This document shows, piece after piece, positions 1,241-17,082 of a stretch of DNA of 46,157 bases; the stretch's first letter is position 1, and each line of letters starts with the position of its first letter. The stretch comes from Pseudomonadota bacterium (GTDB lineage: Bacteria > Pseudomonadota > Gammaproteobacteria > Xanthomonadales > Xanthomonadaceae). The position numbers and the translations under genes were made by a program. Under the pieces are notes generated by a model. The model worked only from the letters and a program-made list of their open reading frames with translations, did not search any database and had not been told where the DNA came from. Location: positions 1 to 46,157 of the forward strand of contig JAKACT010000009.1 in NCBI GenBank assembly GCA_021821195.1, written 5' to 3'.

Positions 1241-1246
1241 GGTGCT

Positions 1247-1277
1247 TACTAGCGATAATCATCACTTATCGCTAGTA
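1247..1277. repeat. Perfect 12-bp inverted repeat, candidate operator / TnpT-binding site
   Basis: TACTAGCGATAA (1247-1258) and TTATCGCTAGTA (1266-1277) are exact reverse complements separated by 7 bp. The dyad lies between the two divergent genes, 42 bp before the KfrA-like start. It could be the operator of the KfrA-like DNA-binding protein or its accessory site for resolution. It has no T tract, so a terminator is unlikely. Confidence 0.7.
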
Positions 1278-1319
1278 CGAAATCAGCAGAGTAGGGCGGC
1301 CGCGTAGGAGGCACAAGCC

Positions 1320-2497: not shown

Positions 2498-2524
2498 TGC
2501 ATCGGTTACGCCCCATTTCGCGTA
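2498..2524 (+). promoter_or_regulatory. Candidate ECF-sigma promoter of phr
   Basis: TGCATCG (2498-2504), 16 bases, then CGTA (2521-2524), ending 36 bases before the photolyase ATG. The geometry is the same as at five other promoters in this window; the last base of the upstream element is G instead of C. Confidence 0.7.
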
Positions 2525-2560
2525 TATAGCCAGTCCTCGTTGAAGCAGGCTCGAGTCCCG

Positions 2561-3976
2561 ATGTCCACGGCCCTGGTGTTGTTCCGCCAAGACCTCCGCC
2601 TGGGCGACAACGCCGCGCTGACTGCCGCGTGCCTTGCCCATGAGCGCGTACTGCCGGTTTACATCCACGCGCCATCGGAATATTCGCCATGGCAGCCGGG
2701 TGCCGCCAGTCGCTGGTGGCTGCATCATTCGTTGCAAGCGCTACGCGGCCAGTTGGCAGCCCAAGGCGGTGACCTGCATCTGACTGCTGGCGCCCCCCTG
2801 GACTGCCTGCGCACCCTGATCCGCGCCAGCGGCGCCACCGAAATCCACTGGAATCGCCGCTGCGAACCCGCGGCGATTGCCAGTGACGCCGTCCTGAAGG
2901 CGGCACTGCGCGAAGACGGCATCGCCGTGCACAGCCACGCCGGCGGCCTTTGGAGCGAGCCGTGGACGCTGGCCACCGACGCCGGCCAGCCGTATCGGGT
3001 GTTCACCCCGTACTGGCGCAAGCTGCGCGCGCGTTTGCCGGATCCGGCGCCACTGCCGGCGGCCCGGGCGCGCGAATGGCTGCAGCTGCCGGGCAGCCTG
3101 CCGACGGCCGCACTGGGCCTGTTGCCGGCGATCCGCTGGGACGCCGGGCTGGACGCCAGCTGGACGCCGGGCGAAGCCGGCGCACGGGAGCTGCTCGAGA
3201 TCTTCGCCGACGATGCCGTGTCGGATTATGCGAAAGGCCGCGACCTGCCGGCCCGCCACGGCACCTCGAGGCTGTCGCCGCACCTGCATTTCGGCGAAAT
3301 CACCCCGGCCCAGATCCAGCGCACCCTGCAGGATCGCGCCGCGCGCAGCGGCAGTCGCCAACGCCCCGACCTCGAACCCTATCTGCGCGAACTCGGCTGG
3401 CGTGAATTCGCCCATCACCTGCTCTACCACTTCCCGCATACGCCGGATACGAACTTCAATCCGCGCTTCGATGCCTTCCGCTGGGCGAAACCCGACGCGC
3501 TGTTGCTGGAGCGCTGGCAACGCGGCCGCACCGGCATCCCGCTGGTCGATGCCGGCATGCGCGAGCTCTGGCACACCGGCTGGATGCACAACCGCGTGCG
3601 CATGGTGGTGGCCAGCTTCCTGACCAAGAACCTGCGCCAGCACTGGCGGCACGGCGCGCACTGGTTCTGGGACACGCTGGTGGATGCCGACCTGGCCAAC
3701 AACACCCTCGGCTGGCAGTGGGTGGCCGGCTGCGGGGCCGATGCGGCGCCCTACTTCCGGGTGTTCAACCCGTACCTGCAGGCGGCGAAGTTCGACCCCG
3801 ATGCCGCCTACCTGAAGCGCTGGTTGCCGGAGCTGGCGTCGCTGCCGGCGAAGGCGCTGCATGAGGCTTGGCGCCACCCGGCCGCGCTTGCGGCGAAGGG
3901 CTACCCTGCCCCGATGGTCGACCTTGGCGCCTCGCGCGATGCCGCGCTGGCGGCATGGGGGGCGATGCCCGCCTGA
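2561..3976 (+). CDS. phr: Deoxyribodipyrimidine photolyase (CPD, class I)
   Basis: A 471-residue flavoenzyme that splits cyclobutane pyrimidine dimers in DNA using blue light. The N-terminal alpha/beta antenna domain begins LVLFRQDLRLGDN. The C-terminal helical FAD domain shows the class I signatures GTSRLSPHLHFGEI, WREFAHHLLYH, the WMHNRVRM segment and the LANNTLGWQWVAG stretch. Length is typical (E. coli 472). The ATG at 2561 is preferred over an upstream in-frame ATG at 2486, because homologues start at the FRQDLRLGDN strand and the promoter lies between the two. It is first in the stress island and has its own ECF-type promoter. It converges with the GGDEF gene, with the two stop codons adjacent. 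Confidence 0.95.
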   Translation: MSTALVLFRQDLRLGDNAALTAACLAHERVLPVYIHAPSEYSPWQPGAASRWWLHHSLQALRGQLAAQGGDLHLTAGAPLDCLRTLIRASGATEIHWNRRCEPAAIASDAVLKAALREDGIAVHSHAGGLWSEPWTLATDAGQPYRVFTPYWRKLRARLPDPAPLPAARAREWLQLPGSLPTAALGLLPAIRWDAGLDASWTPGEAGARELLEIFADDAVSDYAKGRDLPARHGTSRLSPHLHFGEITPAQIQRTLQDRAARSGSRQRPDLEPYLRELGWREFAHHLLYHFPHTPDTNFNPRFDAFRWAKPDALLLERWQRGRTGIPLVDAGMRELWHTGWMHNRVRMVVASFLTKNLRQHWRHGAHWFWDTLVDADLANNTLGWQWVAGCGADAAPYFRVFNPYLQAAKFDPDAAYLKRWLPELASLPAKALHEAWRHPAALAAKGYPAPMVDLGASRDAALAAWGAMPA

Positions 3977-3985
3977 TCAGGCGGG
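3968..3985. repeat. 18-bp perfect palindrome spanning two convergent stop codons
   Basis: CCCGCCTGATCAGGCGGG reads the same on both strands and contains the TGA of the photolyase gene (3974-3976) and, on the other strand, the TGA of the GGDEF gene (3977-3979). It could form a cruciform or a weak bidirectional attenuator. There is no T tract on either side, so it is not a classic terminator. Confidence 0.6.
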
Positions 3986-5263
3986 ATTGGCGGCCTCCAC
4001 CCGGTTGCGGCCACCGCTCTTGGCGCGATACATCGCCTCGTCCGCGCGTTGCAGCAGGGCGGAGGCGGTTTCCCTGGCCGCCAGCTGTGCAACCCCCAGC
4101 GACACCGTGACCGGGCCGGCCATCGGAATCGCGGCAGCCGCCACGCCGGCGCGCAGGCGCCCGGCCAGTTCCAGCGCCTGCGCGATCCCGCATCCGGGCA
4201 CCAGGACGAGGAACTCCTCGCCGCCCCAGCGGATCGCCAGGTCATCGCCGCGGATGCCCGCCTGCAGGATCCCGCCGACCGCGACCAGCGCATCGTCGCC
4301 CGCCTGATGTCCCCGCGAATCGTTGATGCGCTTGAAGTGGTCCAGGTCCGCCAGGATCACGCTGAAAGGCTTGCCGGCAGCCTGTGCGTCGACGACCAGC
4401 GCCTCCAACATCCGCGTGCCGGCCAGCCGGTTGTACAGGCCGGTCAGGGCGTCGCGGCTGGCGATTTCAAGCAGGTGGCGCTCGCGTTCGACCCGCTCGC
4501 TGACATCCTTGCCGGTGCTGATGTAGTGGGTGATGCGCCCGGCACCATCGAGTACCGGCGAGATGCTCTGCTCGACATAGAACGGGCTGCCGTCCTTGCG
4601 CCGGTAGGTGAAGGTGGCGCGGAACGCCTTGCCTTCGCGCAGGGAGGTCCGCAGGTTGCGGTAGAACATCGGGTCGCCATGGGAGGGATACAGCATCCGC
4701 GCGGACTGGCCCAGGATCTCGTCGGCGGCATAGCCGGCCAGCCGCCGGAATGCTTCGTTGACGAACACCACGCGGGTATCGCGGTCGGTGATCAGGATCG
4801 GATCCATCGACGCATGCAGGGCCTGCAGCAACAGCCGGCGCTCCTGCTCGCCGGCGATGCGCGCGGTGATGTCGTTCTGCACCGAGACGAAGTGCCGGAC
4901 CGTGCCGTCCGCGTCGCGGACCGGGGCGATCGACCATTCCACCGTGTAGGCGCGGCCATCGGCGGTGTAGTTGACCGTGCTGGCCGAGAACGGCAGCCCC
5001 TGGTGGAGGTGCTTGCGCAGTTCGGCCAGCATCTTCCGGTCGGTACGCGGGCCCTGCAGGATGCGCGGCGATTTGCCGACCAGTTCCTCCAGCCGGTAGC
5101 CGCTCATCCGGCAGAACGCGGGATTGGCATGCACGATGAACGGCCCACCTCCCGCAAGGTCGGCATCGGTGATGAGCACGGCGTTGGTGGCCTGCGTGAA
5201 GGCCTGGCCGAACACGTTCGCCGGCTCGTATCCGCTCGCCGCGGCGCCTGTCATTCCGGCCAT
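3977..5263 (-). CDS. PAS-PAS-GGDEF diguanylate cyclase
   Basis: A 428-residue cytoplasmic enzyme predicted to make cyclic di-GMP from two GTP. PAS1 covers about residues 15-135, PAS2 about 145-265, each followed by a PAC-like segment, then GGDEF about 268-425. The active-site motif is GGEEF (about 347-351). The product-inhibition site is present as RGDD five residues before it, so activity with feedback control is expected. PAS1 carries GKSPRILQG, which looks like the LOV motif but has Pro where the photoactive Cys belongs. There are no membrane segments. Its start overlaps the end of the EAL gene by 13 bp, so the synthase and hydrolase are probably translated together. Confidence 0.93.
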   Translation of the reverse strand: MAGMTGAAASGYEPANVFGQAFTQATNAVLITDADLAGGGPFIVHANPAFCRMSGYRLEELVGKSPRILQGPRTDRKMLAELRKHLHQGLPFSASTVNYTADGRAYTVEWSIAPVRDADGTVRHFVSVQNDITARIAGEQERRLLLQALHASMDPILITDRDTRVVFVNEAFRRLAGYAADEILGQSARMLYPSHGDPMFYRNLRTSLREGKAFRATFTYRRKDGSPFYVEQSISPVLDGAGRITHYISTGKDVSERVERERHLLEIASRDALTGLYNRLAGTRMLEALVVDAQAAGKPFSVILADLDHFKRINDSRGHQAGDDALVAVGGILQAGIRGDDLAIRWGGEEFLVLVPGCGIAQALELAGRLRAGVAAAAIPMAGPVTVSLGVAQLAARETASALLQRADEAMYRAKSGGRNRVEAANPA

Positions 5264-6015
5264 GGGATATCGCCGCCCGGCGTGACCGCCTCGAACTGCG
5301 GGCGGCCGAACCAGTAGCCCTGCATCAGCTCGATGCCGAGGTCGCGCAGGCAGCGCATCTCGTCATCCGTTTCGATGCCCTCGGCGATCACCCGGATACC
5401 CAGTTCCCGGCACATCGTGGACACCCCGGCGACGATCGCGCGGCGCGGCTTGTTGGTATCGATACCGCGCACCAGCGCCATGTCCAGCTTGACGATGTCG
5501 GGCTGGAAGTCGGCCAGCAGGTTGAGCCCGGCGAAGCCGGCGCCGAAGTCGTCGATCGCGGTGAGGAAGCCGATGCGCTGGTATTCGCGCAGCACCTCCG
5601 ACAGCCACTTGCCGTCGTTGACCTGCTCGCCCTCCACCGTCTCGAAGATGATCCGGTCGATCGGGAAGCCGTGCGTGCGCGCCGCCACCAGGGTGGAACG
5701 GATGCACAGCTCCGGGCGGTAGATGGCATTGGGCAGGAAATTGATCGACAGCAGGGACTGCATGCCCAGCCGCGAGGCGATCTCGATCGCCTTGCCGCGA
5801 CAGGCCTGGTCGAACTGGTAGCGGTTGCCATCGGTGATCCGCGACAGCACCGTCGGTGCCGGCTCGCCGGCCGGCCCGCGCACCAGCGCCTCGTGGGCGA
5901 ACACTTCGCGCGTCGCCACGTTGACGATCGGCTGGAACGCGTAGCTGAAGTCGAAGTCCAAGGGCGCCGCATCTCGGCACAGGCCGCAACCCTCGCGTGT
6001 TTCCTTTGCCTGCAT
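5251..6015 (-). CDS. EAL-domain cyclic di-GMP phosphodiesterase
   Basis: A 254-residue stand-alone EAL protein, predicted to hydrolyse cyclic di-GMP to pGpG. The expected metal and catalytic residues are present: Glu42 (EAL at 42-44), Asn92, Glu125 and Glu128, Asp155-Asp156 (DDFGAG), Lys177, Glu212 (EGIET) and Gln232 (MQGYWFG). The N-terminus has a short CGLC segment that could bind a metal or form a disulfide. It lies upstream of and overlaps the GGDEF gene, making an opposing-activity pair. It begins 81 bases after the NAD(P)-binding gene on the same strand, so read-through from that operon is possible. I saw no separate ECF-type promoter for it. Confidence 0.92.
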   Translation of the reverse strand: MQAKETREGCGLCRDAAPLDFDFSYAFQPIVNVATREVFAHEALVRGPAGEPAPTVLSRITDGNRYQFDQACRGKAIEIASRLGMQSLLSINFLPNAIYRPELCIRSTLVAARTHGFPIDRIIFETVEGEQVNDGKWLSEVLREYQRIGFLTAIDDFGAGFAGLNLLADFQPDIVKLDMALVRGIDTNKPRRAIVAGVSTMCRELGIRVIAEGIETDDEMRCLRDLGIELMQGYWFGRPQFEAVTPGGDIPWPE

Positions 6016-6096
6016 GCGGCTTGTTCCCGTCGGGATGGTGGTTTCTAAAGCATACCCGAGGGTGTACGCGGCCCTGCGCGGCGCGCACGCACGCGA

Positions 6097-6771
6097 TCAG
6101 CCCGATGCGCTGGCGGCGCGGGCGATGCCGGCGTTCTCGATCACCGCAGGTCGCCTGCGGTCGTCCACGACCAGCCGCAGCATGCACTCGCCGATGGCCC
6201 GCGTGCTGATGAACACGCCCGGCAGGCAGCGCCCGGCCACGGCCAGTACCGGAGCCCCCAGCGCATACAGCCAGCGACGCAGCCGATGCGGCGAGGCGAT
6301 TCCACGCAGCGGCCGCACCACCCCGGGGCGGAGGCTGGTGTGGACAAGGTCCGAATGGGCCAACGCCATTTCCGCTTCGCCTTTGACCCGCAGCGGCATG
6401 AGCCGGCTGGCGGGATCCGCGCCCATGCCGGATATATACGCAACGAAACCCCTCGGGTTGGCGGCGGCGTAGGCATCCACCACCCGCACCAGCGTGGCCA
6501 CGGTGGCCTCGCTGTAAGCGGCTTCGGTCATTCCCAGCGGCAGCGGCCCCGCGCAGTACAGGCAGGCGTCAAGGCCGGAAAGATCCAGCGCGGCCAGCGC
6601 GGCGGCGGATAAGCCGGGCGCCCGCAGCACCCGCAGCTTCGGGTGCACGGTGGGGAACGGCCCTCGCACCAGCGCGGCGACCCCCGCGATGTCCGGCGAG
6701 CGCAGCAGCACTTCCAGCACGCCCTGCCCCACCAGACCGGTCGCACCGACCAGCAGCACCTGTTTGCCCAT
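6097..6771 (-). CDS. NAD(P)-binding Rossmann oxidoreductase (atypical SDR / epimerase-like)
   Basis: A 224-residue protein with the nucleotide-binding motif GATGLVGQG at residues 8-16 and the usual alternating strands, then SGMGADPASRLMPLRVKGEAE, which corresponds to the active-site region of HTATIP2-like atypical SDRs with Lys but no clear YxxxK tyrosine. The ATG at 6771 is chosen because the Rossmann motif should begin a few residues in; an ATG at 6855 would overlap the DUF2256 gene. It is the third gene of the SDR-DUF2256 operon (12-base gap). The substrate is unknown; placement suggests oxidative stress or quinone/lipid metabolism. Confidence 0.8.
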   Translation of the reverse strand: MGKQVLLVGATGLVGQGVLEVLLRSPDIAGVAALVRGPFPTVHPKLRVLRAPGLSAAALAALDLSGLDACLYCAGPLPLGMTEAAYSEATVATLVRVVDAYAAANPRGFVAYISGMGADPASRLMPLRVKGEAEMALAHSDLVHTSLRPGVVRPLRGIASPHRLRRWLYALGAPVLAVAGRCLPGVFISTRAIGECMLRLVVDDRRRPAVIENAGIARAASASG

Positions 6772-6782
6772 CGCCCGGCTCC

Positions 6783-6914
6783 TCAGCTGCGCCCCCGGCA
6801 ACGCCGGGAACAGTAACGCACCGCGTCCCAGTCGCGCGCCCATCTGCGGCGCCACTGGAACGGCCGGCCGCAGGTCACGCAGGTCTTCTGCGGCAACTCG
6901 CTCTTCCTGCGCAT
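6783..6914 (-). CDS. DUF2256 small zinc-ribbon-like protein
   Basis: A 43-residue basic protein. It carries two cysteine pairs: CVTC at about 12-15 followed by [14 protein letters not shown], then YCSRRC at about 34-39. This matches DUF2256, a tiny family often encoded beside photolyase, cryptochrome and SDR genes in photoprotection clusters. The four Cys probably bind one zinc. The function is unknown. The start at 6914 is the only ATG that gives the family length. It sits between the SDR gene (19-base gap) and the NAD(P)-binding gene (11-base gap). It is easily missed because of its size. Confidence 0.88.
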
Positions 6915-6933
6915 GCGCGGCACGGCGGCGGTC

Positions 6934-7659
6934 TTATTTGCCGGCCACCACGCCACGGCCACCATCGACCCCGAGCACCTGGCCGGTGATCCAGTCGGCC
7001 TGCGAAGACAGCAGGAACGCCGCCGTGGCGGCCGCATCCTCCGGCGTGCCCAGCCGGCCCATCGGATGTGCCTCCGCGATTGCTTCGCGCAGGCGCGGGT
7101 TGCCGATGATGCCCTGCGCCAGCGGCGTCTTCGTGAGCGACGGCGCGACGGCATTGATGCGCACCGCGGGCGCCAATTCGGCAGCCAGCGCACGCACCAG
7201 CCCTTCGACCGCGGCCTTGGCCATGCCGATGGAGGCGTGCATGGGAAAGCCGCGCCCGGCCGCCACCGAAGAAAACAGCACGACCGCGGCCCGCTTGGGG
7301 GCGGCGCGCAGTGCCGGCAGCGCGGCCTGTACCGCCAGCGCTGCACCGGATGCATTCAGGCGGAAATCGCGATCGAAATCCGCGGCGCTCATGCGTTCGA
7401 ACGGCTTCAGGTGGATGCTGCCGATGGCATAGGCCAGGCCGGACAGCGCCGGCCCGGCGTCTTCCGCCATCTGGGCGAACGCGTCGGGCTGCAGCACGTC
7501 GACGGCGGTGCAGGTCGCACCGAGTTCGTCGGCCAAGGCCTGCAGGCGCGCCGCGTCGCGGGCAACCAGATGCAGGGCGTGACCCTCGCCGGCCAGCCGG
7601 CGGCACAATGCGCTGCCGATGCCGCCGGTAGCCCCGTACACCAAGTATTTCTCCGCCAT
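6934..7659 (-). CDS. SDR-fold protein lacking the catalytic tyrosine
   Basis: A 241-residue short-chain dehydrogenase/reductase. The N-terminus has the cofactor motif GATGGIG and the C-terminus has the conserved VDGGRG end. The catalytic segment reads [19 protein letters not shown]: Ser and Lys are kept, but the position four residues before Lys, normally Tyr, is Ile. The NNAG motif is also altered (YAIGS). The protein may therefore be a divergent reductase or a cofactor-binding sensor. ATG at 7659 or 7668 is possible. It is first in an operon with DUF2256 and the NAD(P)-binding gene, and divergent from lipocalin 1, with ECF-type promoters back to back between them. Confidence 0.87.
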
Positions 7660-7696
7660 CGGCTTCACCGGTCCCGCGTTCCATGATGCGGTCCGA

Positions 7697-7723
7697 TACG
7701 GGCGCTGCCTGCGATCGGATGCA
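7697..7723 (-). promoter_or_regulatory. Candidate ECF-sigma promoter of the SDR operon
   Basis: On the minus strand, TGCATCC (7723-7717), 16 bases, then CGTA (7700-7697), 37 bases before the ATG at 7659. It has the same spacing as the sigma-factor promoter itself. Confidence 0.8.
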
Positions 7724-7743
7724 CGCCGTGCAGGACCCCCTCC

Positions 7744-7770
7744 TGCATCCGGACGGTGCGGGCCTGCGTA
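7744..7770 (+). promoter_or_regulatory. Candidate ECF-sigma promoter of lipocalin 1
   Basis: TGCATCC (7744-7750), 16 bases, CGTA (7767-7770), 32 bases before the lipocalin ATG. It stands back to back with the SDR promoter. The two upstream elements are 20 bp apart, exactly as at the sigma/desaturase divergence. Confidence 0.8.
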
Positions 7771-7802
7771 CAGGCGGCATACCCTTCGATGTCGATCCTC
7801 CC

Positions 7803-8378
7803 ATGCGCAGCCTCGCCACCTCCGCCCTGCCCCTGCTACTGGCCGCCCTGTTGAGCGGTTGCGCCGAAGCGGGCACGCCCATCCAGACCGTGCACAACGT
7901 TGACCTGCCGCGCTTCATGGGGCGCTGGTACGTGATCGGCATCATCCCGACCCGCTTCGAGCGCGGCAGCCACAACCCGGTGGAAACCTACCGGCTCGAC
8001 CGCAAGGGCAATGTCTGCACCTGGTACCGCTATCGACCGGACCGCTTCGACGCCCCGGTGAAGCTGCTGAAATCCACCGGCCTGGTGGTGCCGGGCACCG
8101 GCAATGCCGAGTGGAAGGTGCGCTTCTTCGGGCTGTTCAAGGCGCAGTACAAGGTTGGCTGGCTGGCGCCGGACTACAACCAGGTACTGATCGTGCGCGA
8201 TGCCCGCGACTACCTGTGGTACATGGCGCGCACGCCCACCGTGGCGGAAAGCGATTACCAGGCCATGCTGGCACGGGCCGGCACGCTGGGCTACGACGTG
8301 GACCGCATCGAGCGCGTGCCGCAGCGCTGGCCCGAGACCGACGCCGGCCGCGACACCTTCCACGGGGACTGCAAATGA
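7803..8378 (+). CDS. Lipocalin-family lipoprotein (Blc-like)
   Basis: A 191-residue outer-membrane-type lipoprotein. The signal peptide ends in the lipobox LLSGC at about residues 14-18. The lipocalin signature GRWYVIG follows at about 40, then the beta-barrel and a late region with DARDYLWYMARTP. Blc-type lipocalins bind lysophospholipids or fatty acids during membrane stress. The ATG at 7803 is chosen because it places the lipobox correctly; the frame is open upstream. It overlaps the TspO-like gene by 4 bases (ATGA). A second lipocalin ends the lipid operon at 18198-18755. Confidence 0.92.
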   Translation: MRSLATSALPLLLAALLSGCAEAGTPIQTVHNVDLPRFMGRWYVIGIIPTRFERGSHNPVETYRLDRKGNVCTWYRYRPDRFDAPVKLLKSTGLVVPGTGNAEWKVRFFGLFKAQYKVGWLAPDYNQVLIVRDARDYLWYMARTPTVAESDYQAMLARAGTLGYDVDRIERVPQRWPETDAGRDTFHGDCK

Positions 8379-9136
8379 GGTTCCTGGTCCTCGCGCTGGC
8401 GCTGGCGATGCCGCTGGTCGGCTGGCTTTCGAACACCGGCCTGCTGGGGCCGACCAACGGCGAGATCTCGGATCGCTACCCCACGCTGATCGTGGCCGCC
8501 GGCTACGCGTTCGCGATCTGGGGGCCGATCTTCCTGCTGGACGCGGTGTTCGGCATCGCCCAGGTCCGCGTGCGCGAGCCGGGCACCCGCCTGCTGCGCA
8601 TCCGCGTGCTCACTGCGGCGGGCTTCGCGCTGACCTCGTTGTGGATGGTGGTGTTCACGCTGCAATGGTTCTGGCTGGCGCTGGCGATCATCTGGGGCAG
8701 CCTGGGCTGCATGTTGGCCGCGGCGTGGCTGGCGTCGCACACCCGGGGACACCGCCGTGGACCGTGGTGGCAGTGGCTGCCGCTGTCGCTGCACGCGGGC
8801 TGGGTGTCGCTGGCGGCGTTCCTCAATGTGGCGCAAGTGGTGGTGGCGTTCCGGCTGCTGTCCGTCGAGCGGATGTTGCCGTGGACGCTGGTGCTGTTCG
8901 CGCTGGCCGGCGTGCTGTTGCTGGCCGTGGTGGTGAAGCTGCGCGGCAATCCGTGGTACGCGCTGGCAGCCGTGTGGGGCCTGCTGGGGGTGCATGCCAA
9001 GCAGCAGGCGTCCGCGCTGCCGGGCGCCGACACGGCGGCCAGCGTGGCGATGGCGATGGCGGTGCTGGTGGCGCTGACAGCGCTCGCCGCGGCAACGCTC
9101 GGCTGGCGGGAGGCTCGCCTGCGGCGCGCCGGATGA
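8375..9136 (+). CDS. TspO/MBR-related tryptophan-rich membrane protein
   Basis: A 253-residue integral membrane protein with six to seven hydrophobic segments and many Trp. The GEISDRYPTLIVAAGYAFAIWGPIF stretch near residues 28-52 resembles the longer form of the TspO/MBR family. TspO proteins bind tetrapyrroles and respond to light or oxygen in phototrophs; the longer relatives are uncharacterised. The start overlaps the lipocalin stop (ATGA), so the two are translationally coupled and share the ECF-type promoter. Confidence 0.75.
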   Translation: MRFLVLALALAMPLVGWLSNTGLLGPTNGEISDRYPTLIVAAGYAFAIWGPIFLLDAVFGIAQVRVREPGTRLLRIRVLTAAGFALTSLWMVVFTLQWFWLALAIIWGSLGCMLAAAWLASHTRGHRRGPWWQWLPLSLHAGWVSLAAFLNVAQVVVAFRLLSVERMLPWTLVLFALAGVLLLAVVVKLRGNPWYALAAVWGLLGVHAKQQASALPGADTAASVAMAMAVLVALTALAAATLGWREARLRRAG

Positions 9137-9178
9137 CCCCGCTGCGGGCGTTTGCCGAGCAGGGGCGGCCTGCTGCCG

Positions 9179-9205
9179 CGCATCCAACACTTGCGCATCC
9201 GCGTA
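9179..9205 (+). promoter_or_regulatory. Candidate ECF-sigma promoter of folE
   Basis: CGCATCC (9179-9185), 16 bases, CGTA (9202-9205). There is one mismatch in the first base of the upstream element. The FolE ATG is 72 bases downstream, a longer leader than at the other sites. Confidence 0.65.
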
Positions 9206-9277
9206 AACGGCAATGAAACCGTGCTGCTGCAGCATGCGCGCAGTGCGCTCACTCCTCCCCACGTTTAGAGGTCACCC

Positions 9278-9997
9278 ATGTCGCAGCCCCAGCGGGACCC
9301 CACCCCCATCCAGCGCCTGTCGGTGTTGCCCGCATCGCAGCGCGTCCGCGAACGCCTGCGCAGCGCCGGCACCCGCTTCCACGCCAACGACAACATTGCC
9401 GACTACCTGGAGGACGGCGAGCTGGAGGCGATCGAAGGCGAGGTGGCCGCCAAGGCGCAGGAGATGCTGCGCGCGCTGGTCATCGACGTCGACAACGACC
9501 ACAACACCCGCGACACCGGCCGCCGGCTGGCCAAGATGTTCGTGCGCGAACTGTTCGCCGGCCGCTACCAGCACGCGCCCGCGGTCACCGAGTTCCCCAA
9601 CGCAGAGCGCCTGAACGAGCTTATGATCGTCGGGCCGCTGCGCGTGCGCAGCGCCTGCTCGCACCACCTGTGCCCGATCATGGGTCGGGTCTGGGTGGGC
9701 GTGCTGCCCGACGCCGACTCCAACCTGATCGGCCTGTCCAAGTACGCCCGCCTGATCGACTGGATCATGAGCCGCCCGCAGATCCAGGAAGAAGCCGTGA
9801 GCCAGATCGCCGACCTGCTGGAGCAGCGGCTGAAGCCGGACGGCATCGCCGTGGTCATGGAAGCCGACCACTACTGCATGCACTGGCGCGGGGTGAAGGA
9901 CGACGAGTCGAAGATGATCAACAGCGTGATGCGTGGCCGCTTCCTGGCCGACCCGTCGCTGCGCAAGGAATTCCTGTCGCTGCGCCACCGCGGCTGA
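9278..9997 (+). CDS. folE: GTP cyclohydrolase I
   Basis: A 239-residue enzyme that converts GTP to dihydroneopterin triphosphate, the first step of folate and pterin synthesis. The zinc-site region SACSHHLCPIMGRV (Cys and His ligands) and the later HYCMHWRGV supply the metal and active-site residues. Length is close to the family norm (E. coli 222) with a short N-terminal extension. In photoprotection clusters folE may supply methenyltetrahydrofolate for the photolyase antenna (inference). It has its own ECF-type promoter and a strong terminator after it. Confidence 0.95.
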   Translation: MSQPQRDPTPIQRLSVLPASQRVRERLRSAGTRFHANDNIADYLEDGELEAIEGEVAAKAQEMLRALVIDVDNDHNTRDTGRRLAKMFVRELFAGRYQHAPAVTEFPNAERLNELMIVGPLRVRSACSHHLCPIMGRVWVGVLPDADSNLIGLSKYARLIDWIMSRPQIQEEAVSQIADLLEQRLKPDGIAVVMEADHYCMHWRGVKDDESKMINSVMRGRFLADPSLRKEFLSLRHRG

Positions 9998-10020
9998 CGG
10001 GTGTCAACTTCACCAAGTCG

Positions 10021-10050
10021 AACGGCCCGCATCGCGAGATGCGGGCCGTT
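10021..10050. terminator. Bidirectional rho-independent terminator between folE and chrR
   Basis: AACGGCCCGCATC (10021-10033) pairs perfectly with GATGCGGGCCGTT (10038-10050) around a GCGA tetraloop, giving a 13-bp stem followed by TTCC-type pyrimidines. It lies between convergent genes and can serve both. Confidence 0.88.
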
Positions 10051-10091
10051 TCCTTCTGGGACGGGAGAGACGTTCGGCGGTGGGGCCGGGA

Positions 10092-10766
10092 TTACAGGCC
10101 CACCATCGGCTGCAGCTTGCGCGCCAGCCAGCCGCGGAACTGCAGCGGGCCGTCCAGCGCCGCCACGCAGATGCAGGGCACGCCCGGCGAGGTCACCGGC
10201 TGGTGCTCGATGTCGCTGTCCAGGTCGGCCATGTCGCCGGGGCCGAAATGGCCCAGCTCGTCGTCGTAGGCACCCTTGAGGATCTGGGTCAACTCGCTGC
10301 CGCCATGGCTGTGCACCGGCATGCTCTTGCCCGGCGCGATCCTGAGCAGGATCAGGGTGTCGCCGCTGCTGCGCGGCGCCCGGATCATGTGCACGCCCGG
10401 TGCCATCCAGCGCCAGCGCAGCGCTTTCCAGCTCTTGCCGAAATACGGCTGCAGCGGGCGCGGCAGCGCATCCAGCGAGCGCGGGGCATCGGCGGTTTCG
10501 AACAGGCCATTTGCCGCCGCGGGCAGCGGCTGACTCAGGCGCGCCAGCATGTCCTCGCGCAGGCGTGCGGCCTGCTGCGGCTCCGGCGCCGCGGGTTGCT
10601 GCTGCGACAGCAGCACGCCGCCGACCCGCTCGGCCGCTGCCAGCTGCTGGCGGCAGTAGGCGCAACCTTCCAGGTGGGTGTCGGCAACCGCCGCCATTTC
10701 CGGCGACAGCGCGCCGGCGGCATGGCTGACCAGGGTGGCCGGATCGAGGTGATGGCGCGGGGTCAT
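10092..10766 (-). CDS. chrR: ChrR-type zinc anti-sigma factor
   Basis: A 224-residue anti-sigma factor for the ECF sigma gene immediately upstream. The N-terminal zinc domain has His6, His31, Cys35 and Cys38 (HLEGCAYC). These sit at the same positions as the zinc ligands of Rhodobacter sphaeroides ChrR. The C-terminal half is a cupin (HSHGGSELTQILKGAY and GDMADLDSDIEHQ). A CIC pair at 198-200 parallels the redox-active cysteines of ChrR. ChrR keeps sigma-E inactive until singlet oxygen triggers its release. Its ATG overlaps the sigma-factor stop (ATGA), ensuring balanced synthesis. Confidence 0.94.
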   Translation of the reverse strand: MTPRHHLDPATLVSHAAGALSPEMAAVADTHLEGCAYCRQQLAAAERVGGVLLSQQQPAAPEPQQAARLREDMLARLSQPLPAAANGLFETADAPRSLDALPRPLQPYFGKSWKALRWRWMAPGVHMIRAPRSSGDTLILLRIAPGKSMPVHSHGGSELTQILKGAYDDELGHFGPGDMADLDSDIEHQPVTSPGVPCICVAALDGPLQFRGWLARKLQPMVGL

Positions 10767-11338
10767 GTGGCCTCCTGCACGCCCGACTGCAGGCGCAGGA
10801 AGGCACGGCGGATGGAGGATTTGACCGTGCCCAGCGGCATCCCGAGTTCATCGGCGATCTGCTGGTGGGACTTGGCTTCGAAATAGGACATGCGGATCAG
10901 GCGGGCTTGGGTCGCGGACAGGCGCTCGATGCGTTCGTTGAGGTCGGCGTGGGCGGCAAAGCTTTCCGCGGAGGAGAACGCGGGATTGTCGGTTTCCGCT
11001 TCGAACTCCAGCGGCTCCATGTCCACGGCGATCCACTGGTTCTCCCTGCGCAGCCGGTCGATGTGCAGGTTGCGGGCGATCCGGAACAGCCAGGTGGCCA
11101 GCGAGCTGCGGGCCGCGTCGTAGCTGTCGGCGCGTTGCCACAGTCGCAGCAGTGCTTCCTGCGCCAGTTCCTCGGCGACTGCTTCGCGCGCGCCCAAGCC
11201 GCGCAGGTACAGCCGCACCCGCGGGGCGAAGTGGTCGTAGATCCGCATGAAGCAGGCCTGGTCGCGGCGGCGGGCGACCGCCTGCATCTGCCCGGACCAG
11301 TAGCCCGGGTCCCCGGGGCTTGCTTCGGCGATGGACAT
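10763..11338 (-). CDS. rpoE: ECF RNA polymerase sigma factor (ECF11, RpoE/ChrR type)
   Basis: A 191-residue sigma factor. Region 2 runs from FAPRVRLYLRGLG to LRRENQW, with WLFRIARNLHIDRLR. Region 4 ends with SYFEAKSHQQIADELGMPLGTVKSSIRRA, the helix-turn-helix that reads the -35 element. The ChrR partner places it in ECF11, which responds to singlet oxygen. The start at 11338 is chosen over ATGs at 11392 and 11428 because it gives the usual length, has GAGG upstream, and the predicted transcript begins near 11427. The same promoter motif lies in front of phr, SDR, lipocalin, folE and desaturase, so these are likely targets. Confidence 0.93.
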   Translation of the reverse strand: MSIAEASPGDPGYWSGQMQAVARRRDQACFMRIYDHFAPRVRLYLRGLGAREAVAEELAQEALLRLWQRADSYDAARSSLATWLFRIARNLHIDRLRRENQWIAVDMEPLEFEAETDNPAFSSAESFAAHADLNERIERLSATQARLIRMSYFEAKSHQQIADELGMPLGTVKSSIRRAFLRLQSGVQEAT

Positions 11339-11433
11339 GGATCTGGCCGCCTCGAAGGGCGACAGGTTCCTGCGGTTGGGGTCGGAACGCATGGTAGGGC
11401 AAACACGGCCAGCTGGGACGGACACCACCCTCT

Positions 11434-11460
11434 ACGGCCGCCGCTGCGGATTGGATGCAG
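11434..11460 (-). promoter_or_regulatory. Candidate autoregulated ECF promoter of rpoE-chrR
   Basis: On the minus strand, TGCATCC (11460-11454), 16 bases, CGTA (11437-11434). It sits where an autoregulated ECF operon should have its promoter, about 96 bases before the chosen start codon. Confidence 0.8.
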
Positions 11461-11494
11461 CGAAACCGTCAGGCGCGGCTGCATCCAATCCGCG
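11447..11494. repeat. Perfect 16-bp inverted repeat between divergent sigma and desaturase genes
   Basis: GCGGATTGGATGCAGC (11447-11462) and GCTGCATCCAATCCGC (11479-11494) are exact reverse complements around 16 bases. Each arm contains the -35 element of one of two divergent promoters, so the dyad is best read as paired promoters. A shared regulator site is possible. Confidence 0.85.
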
Positions 11495-11507
11495 TGCCGT
11501 CGCGTAA
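11481..11507 (+). promoter_or_regulatory. Candidate ECF-sigma promoter of the lipid operon
   Basis: TGCATCC (11481-11487), 16 bases, CGTA (11504-11507), 28 bases before the desaturase ATG. It drives the eight-gene run from 11536 to 18755. Confidence 0.8.
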
Positions 11508-11535: not shown

Positions 11536-12501
11536 ATGCCCCAGGACCCGGCACCCCTCCCCTCTCCAGCCGACAACGCCCCCGCGCGCACGGCCCGGCG
11601 CAGCCTCCTGCAATGGTTCGACAGCGCCGCCGTGCCGGCTGCCGGGGGCGCCGACGCGGACCGGGTGGACTGGCTGCGGGTGCTGCCGTTCGTGTTGCTG
11701 CACCTGGGCTGCATCGGGGTGCCGTGGGTCGGCGTTTCGCCGGTGGCGGTGCTGGTCGCCACCCTGCTCTACGTGGTGCGGATGTTCGCCATCACCGGCT
11801 TCTACCACCGCTATTTCTCGCATCGCGCGTTCCGCACCTCGCGTCCGCTGCAGTTCGTGTTCGCACTGATTGGCGCTGCCAGCGTGCAGCGCGGTCCGCT
11901 GTGGTGGGCCGCGCACCATCGCCACCACCACCGCCATTCCGATGCCGCGGAAGACCTGCACTCGCCCCGCCATGGGTTCTGGCGCAGCCACATGGGCTGG
12001 TTCCTGACCCGCCGTGCGTTCGCCACCGACCTCAGCCGGGTGCCGGACCTGGCGCGCTTCCCGGAGCTGCGCTGGCTGGATCGCTTCGATGTGGCGGTCC
12101 CTGCTGCGATGGCGGTGGGTCTGTATGCGCTGGGCGCAATGCTGGAGCGCTTCGCGCCGACGCTGGGCACCAGCGGCCCGCAGCTGCTGGTGTGGGGCTT
12201 CTTCGTATCCACCGTGGTGCTGTTCCACGCAACGGTGACCATCAATTCGCTGTCGCACCGCTTCGGCCGCCGCCGCTTCCCGACCAGCGACGACAGCCGC
12301 AACAACCTGTGGCTGGCGCTGCTGACCTTCGGCGAGGGCTGGCACAACAACCACCACTTCTACTCCAGCAGTGCGCGGCAGGGATTCCGCTGGTGGGAGA
12401 TCGACCTGACCTGGTACGGCCTGCGGCTGATGGCACTGCTGGGCCTGGTGCGCGACCTCAAGCCGGTGCCCGAGTGGGTGCTGGCGAAGGCGGAGCGCTG
12501 A
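11536..12501 (+). CDS. Membrane acyl-CoA / fatty acid desaturase
   Basis: A 321-residue integral membrane di-iron enzyme that introduces a double bond into fatty acyl chains, probably delta-9. The three histidine boxes are clear: HRYFSH, HHRHHHRH and HNNHH. Four hydrophobic segments surround them. The ATG at 11536 is preferred to 11455, since the promoter lies between the two. It is first in the lipid operon, with one base between its stop and the FAD oxidoreductase start. Its product could be the unsaturated substrate for the two CFA-type enzymes downstream. Confidence 0.92.
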   Translation: MPQDPAPLPSPADNAPARTARRSLLQWFDSAAVPAAGGADADRVDWLRVLPFVLLHLGCIGVPWVGVSPVAVLVATLLYVVRMFAITGFYHRYFSHRAFRTSRPLQFVFALIGAASVQRGPLWWAAHHRHHHRHSDAAEDLHSPRHGFWRSHMGWFLTRRAFATDLSRVPDLARFPELRWLDRFDVAVPAAMAVGLYALGAMLERFAPTLGTSGPQLLVWGFFVSTVVLFHATVTINSLSHRFGRRRFPTSDDSRNNLWLALLTFGEGWHNNHHFYSSSARQGFRWWEIDLTWYGLRLMALLGLVRDLKPVPEWVLAKAER

Positions 12502-12502
12502 G

Positions 12503-13762
12503 ATGCGGATCGCCGTCGTCGGCTCCGGGATCTCCGGCCTCGCCAGCGCCTGGCTGCTGTCGCAGGCGCACGAGGTGGTGCTGTTCGAGGCCAACGACTA
12601 CCTCGGGGGTCACACCCATACCCATGCCGTCGAGCAGGCCGGGCGATCGTATCGGGTGGACACCGGCTTCATCGTCCACAACCCGGCGCATTACCCGCTG
12701 CTGACCCGCCTGTTCGACACCTTGGGCGTGGCGACGCAGCCCACCACCATGAGTTTTTCGGTGCACAGTGCACGCAGCGGGCTGGAATACAACGCCACGT
12801 CGCTGGACGCGCTGTTCTGCCAGCGCCGCAACCTGCTGTCGCCGCGCTTCCTCGGCATGGTGCGCGACCTGTTCCGGTTCTACCGGCAGGCGCCGTCCCT
12901 GCTGGTGGGTGACGGCCCGGGCCCGGGCATCGGCGACTGGCTGGACGACAACGGCTACGGCGCGGCCTTCCGCGACGACCACCTGGTGCCGATGGCCTCG
13001 GCGCTGTGGTCGTCGCCGCCGGAGCAGGTCCTGCGGTTCCCGGCGCGCTATCTGGTGCAGTTCATGGCCAACCACCAGATGCTGCAGGTCAGCGGCCGCC
13101 CCGAGTGGCGGGTGGTGCGCGGCGGGTCTGCCAGCTATGTCGAAGCGCTGCGCGCGCGCTGGCAGGTGCAGGAACGCCTGCGCTGCCCCGTGCGCTCGGT
13201 GGTCCGCGATGGCTACGGCGTGCTGGTGGAGAGTGCAGCCGGCAGTGAACGCTTCGACCAGCTCGTGCTGGCCTGCCACAGCGACCAGGCGCTGGCGCTG
13301 CTGGCCGACGCCAGCGTCAATGAACGCGACGTCCTCGGCGCCATCGCCTACCAGCCGAATGACGTGGTGCTGCACACCGATGCCAGCCTGCTGCCGCGCA
13401 ACCGCAAGGCGTGGGCTGCATGGAATGCCTTCCTGCCGGGCGACCCGGAAGCGCCCTGCACCGTCAGCTACTGCATGAACCTGCTGCAGGGCATGCATTC
13501 GCCCGACCCGTTCGTGGTGACGCTGAACCGCAGCGAGGCCATCGCCCCGGCCAAGGTGCTGCGCCGGCTGCGCTACCACCACCCGGTGTACGACGCGGCG
13601 TCGGTGGCGGCGCAGCAGCGCAAAGCCGCCATCCAAGGCCACAACCACACCTGGTTCGCCGGCGCTTACTGGGGATGGGGCTTCCACGAGGACGGCGTGC
13701 GCAGCGCAGTGGAAGTCGCGGCCGGGCTGGGCGTGGCGTGGCCGCAGGGTGCGGCGGCATGA
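12503..13762 (+). CDS. FAD-dependent oxidoreductase (amine-oxidase fold, UfaD-like)
   Basis: A 419-residue flavoprotein. It starts with the dinucleotide-binding motif [15 protein letters not shown] and the [11 protein letters not shown] segment, and ends with the FAD-contacting [14 protein letters not shown]. The family (NAD(P)/FAD oxidoreductases in CFA/DUF1365 clusters) includes R. sphaeroides RSP1091 (UfaD), reported to desaturate a methylated acyl chain on the way to furan fatty acids. That specific role is inference from neighbours and family. It overlaps the DUF1365 gene by 4 bases. Confidence 0.87.
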
Positions 13763-14535
13763 GCGCGCGGCTGCACAGCGCGGTTTACGAGGGCGTGGTC
13801 CGGCATCGCCGCAGCGCGCCGCGTCCGCATGCGTTCCGTTACCGGATGGCCCAGCTCTACCTCGACCTCGACGAGATCGACGATGTATTCCGCGGCCGCT
13901 GGTTGTGGTCGGTCGGGCGCCGCAACCTCGCCGAATTCCGCCGCGCCGATTTCCTCGGTCCGGCGGAGCAACCGCTGAAGGAAGCGGTCAAGGATCGCGT
14001 CGAAGCGGCCATCGGCGAACGCCCGGCCGGCCCGGTGCGCCTGCTCACGCACCTGCGCTATGCCGGCATGGCGTTCAACCCGGTCAGCTTCTACTACTGC
14101 TTCGACGCCGACGGTGAAACCCTGCACAGCATCGTCGCCGAAATCACCAACACGCCGTGGCTGGAGCGGCATGCCTACGTGCTGCCGGTGGGTGCCGCCA
14201 GCGGCAATGGGCGGATGCTGCGCTGGGACTTCGACAAGACCTTCCATGTTTCCCCGTTCGTGGGCATGGCCCGCCGCTACGACTGGCGCTTCACGATCCC
14301 GGGCGACACCCTCCACGTCAACATGGCCGTGCTGGGCGCGCACGGCCGCGAGTTCGACGCACACCTGCAGCTGCAGCGTCGGCCGCTGGGCACCGCCACG
14401 CTGGCGCGGGTGCTGTGGCGCTATCCGCTGATGACCGCGCAGGTGGTCGGCGCCATCTACTGGCAGGCGCTGCGGCTATGGCTCAAGCGCATTCCCTTCC
14501 ACGACCATCCCCGACTTCCAGGAGGCCGTTCTTGA
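13759..14535 (+). CDS. DUF1365 family protein
   Basis: A 258-residue protein of unknown biochemical function. It has the family landmarks: an early [24 protein letters not shown], a central [21 protein letters not shown], and a late [14 protein letters not shown]1365 genes almost always accompany FAD oxidoreductase and CFA synthase genes, so a step or accessory role in fatty-acyl modification is likely. The start overlaps the FAD gene stop (ATGA) and its own stop overlaps the next start (TTGA). Confidence 0.92.
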
Positions 14536-15782
14536 ACGCCATCGTCCAGCCCGCACCAGCCAACACCTTCGGCGGCTTCGACAAGTTCCTGCGCCAGCGC
14601 GTGCTACAGCGGCTGTCCGCGCTGGGCCACGGCCACCTGCGGGTCAATGACGGGCTGGGCAGCGCCGAGTTCGGCCGCGCCGGCGATGGCCCCACGGTCG
14701 TGCTCGAAGTGCTGGATCCGGGCTTCTACCGCGCCTTGGCCGGCAACGGCAGCGTCGGCGCTGGCGAGGCCTACATGGACGGTCAGTGGCGCTGCAGCGA
14801 TCTGGTCGCACTGGTGCAGCTGCTGGTGCGCAACCGCGACCTGCTGGACGGCATGGAAACCGGCAGCGCCCGGCTGGGCGGGCTGGCGATGCAGGCGCTG
14901 CACGCCCTGCGCCGCAACACCCGCGCCGGCAGCCGGCGCAACATCGCCGCGCACTACGACCTCGGCAACGACTTCTTCCGCCTGTTCCTGTCCGCGGACC
15001 TGATGTATTCCTCGGCGTACTGGGCGGGTGACGACGACACGCTGGAAGCGGCCTCCACCCGCAAGCTGGACCTGATCTGCCGCAAGCTGGCGCTGGGCCC
15101 GGGCGACCACGTGGTGGAGATCGGCACCGGCTGGGGCGGCTTCGCCCTGCACGCCGCCCGCCACTACGGCTGCCGCGTCACCACCACCACCATCTCGCGC
15201 GAGCAGCACGACCTCGCCGCGGCGCGGATCCAGCAGGCCGGGCTGGGCGAACGCGTGACCCTGCTGCAGTCCGATTACCGCGACCTCGGCAGCCAGTACG
15301 ACAAGCTGGTGTCGATCGAGATGATCGAGGCGGTAGGCGCGGACTTCCAGGACAGCTACTTCGCGCAGATCGGCCGGTTGCTGAAGCCGGACGGACTGGC
15401 GCTGGTGCAGGCCATCACCATCGAGGACCACCGCTACGAGCAGGCGCTGAAGTCGGTGGACTTCATCAAGCGCCACGTGTTCCCCGGCTGCTTCATTCCC
15501 TCGGTCAGCGCGATGCTGGCGTCGAAGACCCGCAGCAGTGACCTGGCGCTGGTCGCGCTGGAGGATTTCGGGCTGTCCTATGCGCGCACCCTGCACGCCT
15601 GGCGCGAACGCTTCCTCGCGCAGCTGGCGGCGGTGCGGGCGCAGGGCTTCGACGAGCGCTTCATCCGCATGTGGGAGTTCTACCTCGCCTATTGCGAAGG
15701 CGGCTTCCGCGAACGCGCCATCGGCGTGTCGCACCTGTTGATGGCCCGGCCAGGCTGGCGTCCGCTGGAGAGCGGCGCATGA
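14532..15782 (+). CDS. Cyclopropane-fatty-acyl-phospholipid synthase family, copy 1 (TTG start)
   Basis: A 416-residue SAM-dependent enzyme that adds a methylene or methyl group to double bonds of membrane lipids. The SAM site is [15 protein letters not shown]; the conserved [13 protein letters not shown] and [10 protein letters not shown] precede it, and IEMIEAVG and FIKRHVFPG follow. This is the classic CFA synthase layout, a little longer than E. coli Cfa (382). No ATG fits. A TTG at 14532 lies 6 bases after a perfect AGGAGG (14520-14525) and overlaps the DUF1365 stop. It overlaps DUF2878 by 4 bases. Confidence 0.93.
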
Positions 15783-16312
15783 CCTTCTGGCTGACCCTGC
15801 TGGGCTACCAGGTCACCTGGTTCGCGGCGGTGATCGGCGCCGGCCAGGGCCTGTGGTGGCCGGGCGTGGCCGCCGCCGGGCTGTTCGCGCTGTGGCGGCT
15901 GTCGGTGTCGCCGCACCGGTTGCTGGAGGCGCGGCTGGTGCTGGTGGCGCTTGCCGTCGGCCTGGTGCTGGAGAACCTGTGGGTGCGCAGCGGCTTGCTC
16001 GACTACGCCGCGGCCTGGCCGTGGGCGGGTTCGCCGGCGTGGATCCTGGCGCTGTGGTGGGCGTTCGCCCTGTCCATCGTCCCGCTGCTTGGGTACCTGC
16101 ACCGCCGCCTACTGCTGGCCGCGGTGTTCGGTGCCATCGGCGGCCCGCTGGCCTACCTCGGCGCCGCGCGCGGCTGGGACGTGGTCCAGTTCGCCAGTCC
16201 GCAGTGGCACGGCCTGCTGGCACTGGCCGCCGGCTGGGCGCTGGCGATGCCGTTGCTGGCGTGGCTGGCCCGGCGCGGCCTGCAACAGGATGTACAAGGG
16301 GGCGCGGCATGA
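15779..16312 (+). CDS. DUF2878 membrane protein
   Basis: A 177-residue hydrophobic protein with about five membrane segments, and WPWAGSPAWILALWWAFALS in the middle. It matches DUF2878, uncharacterised proteins found in CFA-type clusters. Both ends overlap neighbours by 4 bases, so it is tightly coupled to CFA synthase 1 and DUF1295. It may hold the lipid-modifying enzymes at the membrane or transport lipid; neither is shown. Confidence 0.8.
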   Translation: MTFWLTLLGYQVTWFAAVIGAGQGLWWPGVAAAGLFALWRLSVSPHRLLEARLVLVALAVGLVLENLWVRSGLLDYAAAWPWAGSPAWILALWWAFALSIVPLLGYLHRRLLLAAVFGAIGGPLAYLGAARGWDVVQFASPQWHGLLALAAGWALAMPLLAWLARRGLQQDVQGGAA

Positions 16313-17082
16313 ATCCCACGCAGCAACTGTCCTGGATCTGGCTGCTGGCCGCGGCGCTGATGGTGCTGGGTTGGCTGTGGCAGCGCAGCCGCCGCAATGC
16401 CGGCATCGTCGATGTGCTGTGGGCCACCGGGCTTGCCGGCGCTGCGCTGCTGCTGGCGCTCACCGGAACGGGCGCGCCCGCCGCGCGCCTACTCGTGGGC
16501 ATCCTCGCCACCGCGTGGGCGCTGCGGCTTGCGCTGCATCTGTGGGCGCGCGTCCGCAGCGAGCCGGAGGACGGCCGCTATCGCGCCCTGCGTGAACACT
16601 GGCAAGGCAGCCAGCTGAAGTTCTTCGGCTTCTTCCAGTTCCAAGCGCTGCTGGTGCTGCTGTTCTCGCTGCCGCTGCTGGCGGTGGCAGCCCATCCGGA
16701 TCCGACAGCGTGGCAACAGGGCCTGGCCATCGCCATCTGGCTGGTCTCGGTGGCCGGCGAATCGCTGGCGGACACGCAGCTGGCGCGCTTCCGCGCCGAT
16801 CCCGGCAACCGCGGCAGGACCTGCCGCCGCGGCCTGTGGCGGTATTCGCGCCATCCCAACTACTTCTTCGAATGGCTGCACTGGTGCGCGTACGCGGTCG
16901 CCGCCATCGGCGCGCCGCTGGCGTGGCTGGGCTGGCTGGGGCCGGTGGTGATGTACCTGTTCCTGCGCTACATCAGCGGCATCCCCTTCACCGAGCAGCA
17001 GGCCCTGCGCAGCCGCGGCGACGACTACCGCGAGTACCAGCGCACTACCCCAATGCTGTTCCCGTGGTTCCCGAAATCCTGA
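16309..17082 (+). CDS. DUF1295 / steroid 5-alpha-reductase-like membrane protein
   Basis: A 257-residue membrane protein with six to seven hydrophobic segments. The C-terminal part has GLWRYSRHPNYFFEWLHW and the late GDDYREYQRTTPMLFPWFP. These are typical of DUF1295 and related methyltransferase/5-alpha-reductase-like proteins that bind NADPH or SAM. It may reduce a lipid double bond, but the substrate is unknown. Start and end are coupled to DUF2878 (4-base overlap) and followed after 22 bases by CFA synthase 2. Confidence 0.87.
   Translation: MNPTQQLSWIWLLAAALMVLGWLWQRSRRNAGIVDVLWATGLAGAALLLALTGTGAPAARLLVGILATAWALRLALHLWARVRSEPEDGRYRALREHWQGSQLKFFGFFQFQALLVLLFSLPLLAVAAHPDPTAWQQGLAIAIWLVSVAGESLADTQLARFRADPGNRGRTCRRGLWRYSRHPNYFFEWLHWCAYAVAAIGAPLAWLGWLGPVVMYLFLRYISGIPFTEQQALRSRGDDYREYQRTTPMLFPWFPKS

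Follow-up and report, generated by a model that had tools for sequence, protein, structure and literature searches.

The window considered here, which is the entire contig of 46,157 bases from a Thermomonas-like genome (its nearest named loci are those of Thermomonas), raises a question: which regulator reads the element TGCATCC-N16-CGTA that recurs six times in it, among others ahead of phr (DNA photolyase), folE and a membrane-lipid operon? One copy precedes a gene pair encoding a sigma factor of the extracytoplasmic function (ECF) kind, type ECF11, and its zinc-binding anti-sigma factor ChrR. However, the usual −35 element of ECF11 sigma factors is TGATCC. We consider it very probable that the six sites are the promoters of one ChrR-held ECF11-type sigma factor, with a −35 element altered by a single change in the recognition helix; the −35 would thus differ from TGATCC because the helix has changed. 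The sites are the following:

2498..2524, + strand: phr site, TGCATCG-N16-CGTA, one mismatch; predicted promoter
7697..7723, − strand: site of the short-chain dehydrogenase (SDR) operon, exact motif; predicted promoter
7744..7770, + strand: lipocalin site, exact motif; predicted promoter, 20 bp from the divergent −35
9179..9205, + strand: folE site, CGCATCC-N16-CGTA, one mismatch; predicted promoter
11433..11459, − strand: sigma-chrR site, exact motif; predicted autoregulatory promoter
11480..11506, + strand: lipid operon site, exact motif; predicted promoter

The six sites announced by the original prediction are all present at one mismatch or less (four exact, two with one mismatch), although both sites near 11.4 kb had been placed one base too high; the coordinates of the other four were correct. 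Every site lies before a start, as had been claimed, but the distance from CGTA to the start is 28–72 bases and not 28–96. The fixed spacing of 16 was borne out as well: at this spacer the window contains four exact matches and seven matches with one mismatch at most, clearly in excess of all other spacers from 10 to 22, which give one exact match and three such matches at most. The seventh match, absent from the earlier list, is found at 26248–26274 (+), within a long frame of the opposite strand. When upstream regions of 120 bp were examined, 6 of 16 contained a site, while 2000 dinucleotide shuffles of the same regions yielded a mean of 0.01 regions with a site and a maximum of one. Sites with two mismatches showed no excess in the window (16 observed, 12.7 expected); one of them, at 6065–6091, lies 49 bp before the gene at 5251–6015, which looks by eye like an EAL-type gene, and is within chance expectation. 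Hence, the presence of six real sites, far beyond chance, is confirmed.

Does the gene pair among the sites fit the role of regulator? Its two members are:

10763..11392, − strand: ECF11-type sigma factor, recognition helix KSSIRRAF with S193 and R196 (numbering from the ATG at 11392)
10092..10766, − strand: chrR, zinc-binding anti-sigma factor (TIGR02451, 162.5 bits, cut-off 124.5)

The ChrR score upholds the sigma-ChrR pairing that had been proposed, and the exact motif at 11433–11459 (−) does the same for the idea that one site stands before the sigma factor's own gene. The zinc ligands listed for ChrR in excerpts of PMC6852236 are kept when the protein is aligned to chain B of 2z2s, both in the anti-sigma domain (ASD: H6, H31, C35, C38) and in the cupin domain (H152, H154, E158, H188). 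The sigma factor has regions 2 and 4 only and groups with ChrR-linked sigma factors of other classes. CGTA at spacer 16, an ECF11 trait, is present, and the core ECF11 regulon (phr, lipid genes of the cfa type and the sigma factor's own operon) is likewise there, as judged by sites and not by expression. The usual −35 trait is missing: TGATCC-N16-CGTA has no site in the genome, and GCATCC is found in its place. The ECF11 group was, however, drawn by sequence, and TGATCC is its usual trait only. An annotation based on a scan for the usual ECF11 motif would find nothing in this genome. As for RskA-type membership, the anti-sigma factor is ChrR, and an RskA-partnered sigma factor discussed below has no match in the genome at E ≤ 1e-40.

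Sigma factors linked to ChrR were compared across genomes. They were gathered from three sources: a draw on the phylum, in which 89 of 299 genomes exceeded the ChrR cut-off (92 loci), a draw on the order (46 of 249 genomes) and named loci. Thirteen of 60 loci were dropped before counting because the search found no sigma factor, and one genome with a split ChrR match below the cut-off (G438) was counted as ChrR-positive. Once identical copies were removed, there remained 80 sigma factors of Xanthomonadales type, from Xanthomonadales and related metagenome-assembled genomes and defined by R196, and 76 others. When ATC[CT]-N16-CGTA was required, a site was found for 76 of the R196 sigma factors (the remaining four had none), and the two bases preceding it were GC in 69, GA in four and GG in three. 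Among the others, 52 had a site and 24 had not, and the preceding bases were TG in 45. In other words, R196 sigma factors have G at −35 in 76/76 cases and the others T in 47/52; in the R196 set, the base preceding G−35 is T in 64 of 76. A class draw kept apart from these counts, in which 16 of 369 genomes exceeded the cut-off and 11 loci were examined, gave TGATC[CT] at spacer 16 in eight loci, TGATCC at spacer 17 in one and no site in two. The suspicion that the −35 might be a lineage-specific variant is thereby substantiated, with GCATCC in the Xanthomonadales-type sigma factors versus TGATCC in most others.

The two kinds of sigma factor also differ in the recognition helix. By definition, all 80 proteins of the first kind carry R at position 196; 70 of the other 76 carry L there. 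Position 193 played no part in the definition: R occupies it in 76/76 others and in none of the first kind. Within residues 31–209, only these two positions fully separate the groups among columns of full occupancy. In the alignment, position 196 corresponds to R175 of SigW. According to excerpts of PMC6713349, this arginine and its counterpart R176 in E. coli SigE bond the G−35 base, and R176 packs on the −36 base. Domain 4 is reported to carry −35 specificity in ECF02/ECF11 chimeras (excerpts of PMC3817407). A tree calculated without the helix columns, with 116 of 155 rows (every second R196 row was omitted), places the gain of R196 on one branch with support 100 and length 1.02. Within the order, the switch is seen in families f1 and f2 and in a single f76 genome.

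Sites that are promoters should be found before the leading genes of transcription units. The remaining genes of the region are:

2561..3976, + strand: phr, DNA photolyase (PF03441, PF00875)
6097..6771, − strand: NAD(P)-binding protein, gene 2 of the SDR operon (PF13460, 27.9 bits, cut-off 27.2)
6934..7668, − strand: short-chain dehydrogenase, GTG start (PF13561)
7803..8378, + strand: lipocalin (PF08212)
8375..9136, + strand: multi-helix membrane protein without family match
9278..9997, + strand: folE, GTP cyclohydrolase I (PF01227)
11536..12501, + strand: fatty acid desaturase (PF00487)
12503..13762, + strand: FAD amine-oxidase-like protein (PF01593)
13759..14535, + strand: DUF1365 protein (PF07103)
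14529..15782, + strand: cyclopropane-fatty-acid-synthase-like methyltransferase, start tentative (PF02353)
15776..16312, + strand: DUF2878 protein, start tentative (PF11086)
16309..17082, + strand: DUF1295 protein (PF06966)

Footprints of the motif were scored in 46 loci of relatives, that is, 48 less two from Methylobacterium, whose sigma factors score far lower. For each ortholog, the highest-scoring site no more than about 260 bp from the start was taken, and it counted as a footprint with at least 10 of 11 letters, one letter being deducted for spacers 15 or 17; matches to phr, SDR and the NAD(P)-binding gene below 35% identity were dropped, and so was folE of one locus at a contig end (L033). 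A footprint was found before the sigma gene in 44/46 loci, before the desaturase in 31/31 orthologs (one at spacer 17), before folE in 10/12, before SDR in 5/6 and before phr in 4/10. The lipocalin has one in 8 of 32 homologs, including all six with more than 75% identity. Seven non-leading genes (chrR and those for the membrane protein, the NAD(P)-binding protein, DUF1365, cfa, DUF2878 and DUF1295) gave 0/193, and the amine oxidase gene, also non-leading here, 3/32. With sites at the leading genes and hardly any at the internal genes that serve as control, the pattern is promoter-like. It is chiefly among close relatives that phr and the lipocalin gene are targets.

The original prediction spoke of a local regulon and suggested a scan of the full genome. 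That scan favors a wider one, since two exact sites lie outside the window, and all six exact matches of the genome end 25–50 bp before a correctly oriented start. Matches with one mismatch or less amount to 38, compared with 15 for the reversed pattern; the latter is a weak control, as its expectation differs, and the comparison between genomes given below is based on the presence or absence of the sigma factors instead. Called frames enclose 22 of the 29 one-mismatch matches beyond the window, and for three a called start follows within 160 bp, but the frame rule is also a weak control: five of eight regulon sites fall in frames that extend upstream of the likely start. One of the outer exact sites precedes a gene for a catalase-like peroxidase (PF00199; G000:C6:479976-481061, L257), followed by a frame that resembles cytochrome b561 by eye. 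As a conserved target this gene was discarded, with a site in only two of four homologs. The other precedes a gene that looks by eye like an outer-membrane protein gene (G000:C6:577483-578250, L261) and has no Pfam match. A perfect site is found before 9/9 of its homologs, from eight Thermomonas genomes including this one. All eight have a ChrR match, split or partial in three. At E ≤ 1e-20 the gene was detected in none of six Thermomonas genomes without a ChrR match; it is also missing from two with ChrR.

Taken as a mechanism, the proposal is as follows. An oxidative or photo-oxidative signal would inactivate ChrR and free the sigma factor, whose region 4 would then engage the TGCATCC −35 element and region 2 the CGTA −10 element across the spacer of 16. 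Predicted targets are its own operon, the membrane-lipid modification genes, the photolyase, folE, the lipocalin and SDR, with the catalase-like and outer-membrane-like genes as candidate distant targets. Replacement of Leu196 by Arg, which would contact G−35, together with the loss of Arg193 would have occurred once, in the ancestor of the Xanthomonadaceae/Rhodanobacteraceae sigma factors. The new code would be that of an RskA-partnered ECF sigma factor found ahead of the same lipid operon in relatives that lack ChrR.

This second sigma factor belies the notion that the motif is private to ECF11-ChrR, as an unrelated protein shares the sites in sister genomes and partly elsewhere. In the ChrR-less Thermomonas genomes G891 and G896, the lipid operon and TGCATCC-N16-CGTA are kept, and the neighboring sigma factor is a different ECF protein. 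It has 34% identity to the sigma factor of the window, its best NCBIfam match is PRK12534 (below cut-off), and it is followed by an RskA-type anti-sigma factor (PF10099). In 29 of a set of 32 such loci (30 among the best matches plus two more), one or more GCATCC-N16-CGTA sites lie within 1.5 kb. The helix could be read by pattern in 26 of the 32 loci and is K-S-W-I-R-R in these, with R at 196. Six loci of the family (L277, L278 and L349–L352) share the order site, small gene, sigma, RskA, site, desaturase, amine oxidase, DUF1365, cfa, DUF2878, DUF1295. Outside the order, 14 of 29 loci have a PLG-type helix; eight of these have a site, in seven cases directly after RskA, and the lipid operon was absent from the ten PLG-type loci examined over 17 kb. 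Among the loci examined, the lipid operon thus accompanies the second sigma factor in this order alone.

Motif density was compared across 79 genomes of the family of the window. Per Mb, the 18 genomes that have ChrR alone hold 1.32 copies of TGCATCC-N16-CGTA, the 22 that have the second sigma factor alone 1.01, the three that have both 1.14 and the 36 that have neither 0.29. Relative to genomes with neither, the density is 3.5–4.5 times higher (p = 1e-6 for ChrR only and 3e-8 for the second sigma factor only; these and the following p values are uncorrected for relatedness). TGATCC shifts less, with 0.88, 0.86, 0.96 and 0.65 per Mb in the same order (p = 0.04 and 0.11). Of the 43 sampled family genomes with a module, 40 have just one of the two. 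Mutual exclusion of the two sigma factors was considered and set aside as a tendency only, as 3/79 genomes hold both (Fisher p = 0.057). We find the arguments evenly balanced for a broader scenario, in which two helix residues changed in the Xanthomonadaceae/Rhodanobacteraceae ancestor, so that ECF11 adopted the code of the RskA-partnered sigma factor, and the modules have since been interchangeable over one membrane-lipid and photolyase regulon, with promoters remaining constant while sensor and sigma factor are swapped.

An alternative to such convergence is that the shared code reflects descent or a domain swap. Both proteins belong to the ECF superfamily, SigE and SigW also have R at this position, and R196 is perhaps an old state that was regained or kept. 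In a joint tree, however, the Xanthomonadales ECF11 sigma factors fall among ECF11, and a branch sets the second sigma factor apart on one of its sides; support is 100 in either case. Region 4 of the R196 ECF11 proteins is, moreover, nearer to that of other ECF11 (0.39) than to that of the second sigma factor, either from the order (0.35) or from outside it (0.31), so no domain swap is seen and a swap was rejected as the source of the code. Common origin of the code thus seems improbable to us. A different doubt concerns the reader of the sites in this genome: another ECF sigma factor might use them, with the adjoining sigma-ChrR pair a coincidence. The use of the same motif by a second ECF sigma factor in sister genomes lends itself to this idea, but the absence of any match to that protein in this genome at the threshold already given, the motif ahead of the sigma gene in nearly all loci of relatives, and the dependence of the lipid operon of Stenotrophomonas maltophilia on its ECF11 sigma factor (excerpts of PMC11832516) make it very unlikely.

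The inverted pairs of sites admit yet another explanation, namely that a dimeric repressor or activator binds them as operators, in which case they would not be back-to-back promoters. In favor of it, the arms contributed at 11.4 kb by the promoters of the sigma gene and the lipid operon are perfect inverted copies of 14 bp with 20 bp between them; exactly 20 bp separate the −35 heptamers in both divergent pairs (7724–7743 and 11460–11479). Against this stand the single sites at phr, folE and the catalase-like and outer-membrane-like genes, the retention of CGTA at N16 and the orientation of the sites towards a start. In addition, the gap between arms varies in relatives, with clusters at 9–10 and 20 bp and the rest between 7 and 74 bp (counts uncorrected for relatedness and duplicate loci). 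We regard a dimeric operator as the least probable of the three alternatives, with hardly any chance of being right; the gap of 20 bp may possibly reflect helical phasing.

Several observations weigh against our preferred reading, that is, promoters of a ChrR-held sigma factor with a changed helix. The activity of the sites as promoters in this genome is deduced from their sequence and position. The association of residue and base within ECF11 amounts to one event, as R196 was gained once on a long branch, and the second sigma factor adds a second case that is still correlational. R196 alone does not predict a site: the other 15 of the 29 second-sigma loci outside the order carry R196, have N for G in the turn and lack a GCATCC site nearby. 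The motif is also found in 17 of the 36 family genomes with neither module, with a mean of 1.03 per genome over the 36. Individual loci depart from the rule too. The only ChrR-linked sigma factor of f81, a family of the same order, lacks the switch (L169). AGCATCC lies upstream of a sigma factor with R193/L196 (L153), a protein with S193/R196 has only TGATCT at spacer 15 (L170), two with N193/R196 have no site (L177 and L192), L031 has TGCCTCC, and L220 lacks R193 yet keeps TGATCT. Residue 193 was discarded as the sole cause, being opposed by L220 and by L318, which has R193 and R196 with a TGCATCC site nearby; this makes 196 the better candidate for contact with G−35. Two sigma factors with Lys196 (L088 and L315) show A at the −35 base (GAAATCC and CACATCC). 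Lys196 with A at −35 is perhaps a further letter of the code, with two cases only.

How does the module relate to known systems? The sigmaE of Rhodobacter sphaeroides has R193/L196 in its helix, in contrast with S193/R196 here. Its −35 element, which we take to be TGATCC, contrasts with GCATCC in the window. In excerpts of PMC4336711, TGATCC is likened to the R. sphaeroides −35. The R. sphaeroides sigmaE-ChrR pair is otherwise like the one described here, with a zinc anti-sigma factor that has both metal sites, an autoregulated operon and lipid genes of the furan-fatty-acid type (Donohue 2019, excerpts of PMC6852236). Two other systems share the sigma-ChrR type, spacer 16 and CGTA but have a TGATCC −35, as described in parts of the respective papers: PSPTO_1043 of Pseudomonas syringae, studied by ChIP-seq (PMC5507510), and RpoE2 of Shewanella oneidensis, with mapped starts (PMC4336711). 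The SigK/RskA-like pair of ChrR-less relatives shares GCATCC-N16-CGTA, R196 and the lipid operon; its anti-sigma factor is unrelated to ChrR.

Closest is RpoEc-ChrR-ChrA of S. maltophilia, which belongs to the same family and has the same type of sigma factor and a divergent lipid operon, sigma-dependent by RNA-seq. According to excerpts of PMC11832516, a chrR mutant shows a 165-fold increase of the lipocalin and a 207-fold increase of cfa, both lost in a chrR rpoEc mutant, and the regulon additionally contains yceA-cybB-yceB and a sensor-kinase cluster. Among six loci named S. maltophilia, (T/C)GCATCC is found at both promoters in five; the remaining locus has it only at the sigma gene. The excerpts make no mention of the code switch. 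They report that the system affects tolerance of superoxide, not of singlet oxygen. The inducing signal here could therefore be either photo-oxidative or another oxidative stress.

New here are the code switch and the proposed convergence, the ECF11-ChrR regulon itself having been described before. The variant −35 may already be in print as the MEME-box logo in Figure 6 of PMC11832516. A text search for TGCATCC or GCATCC with sigma or ECF returned, in the part of the matches examined, an oligonucleotide, a primer, an ECF29 −10 element, a list of general-stress promoters and the P. syringae PSPTO_4231 promoter, gcATCC-N16-CGTA. Among the titles listed by literature searches, none dealt with convergence of the two sigma factors. 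Rewiring of ECF sigma factors was reportedly the subject of Todor et al. in PNAS in 2020, a paper covered in excerpts of the review PMC8103513. If correct, our reading describes a natural and structurally interpretable change of promoter code, with one or two helix residues matched to two −35 bases. Two unrelated sigma/anti-sigma pairs also appear to share a promoter language and an operon, which would make the rewiring of a stress regulon traceable across species.

Minor observations concern the neighbors of the sites. The membrane protein at 8375–9136 had been labeled TspO, but none of the sequence and fold searches supports this label: there was no match in Pfam or NCBIfam at 1e-3 nor in PDB sequences at E 1, and a model of moderate quality with nine helices (mean predicted local distance difference test score 72) gave no fold match at E ≤ 0.001. 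The protein, encoded between the lipocalin gene and folE, is 65–94% identical across eight relatives. At the left end of the window (135–2240), beside phr, the sequence resembles by eye genes for a tyrosine recombinase and a KfrA-like protein.

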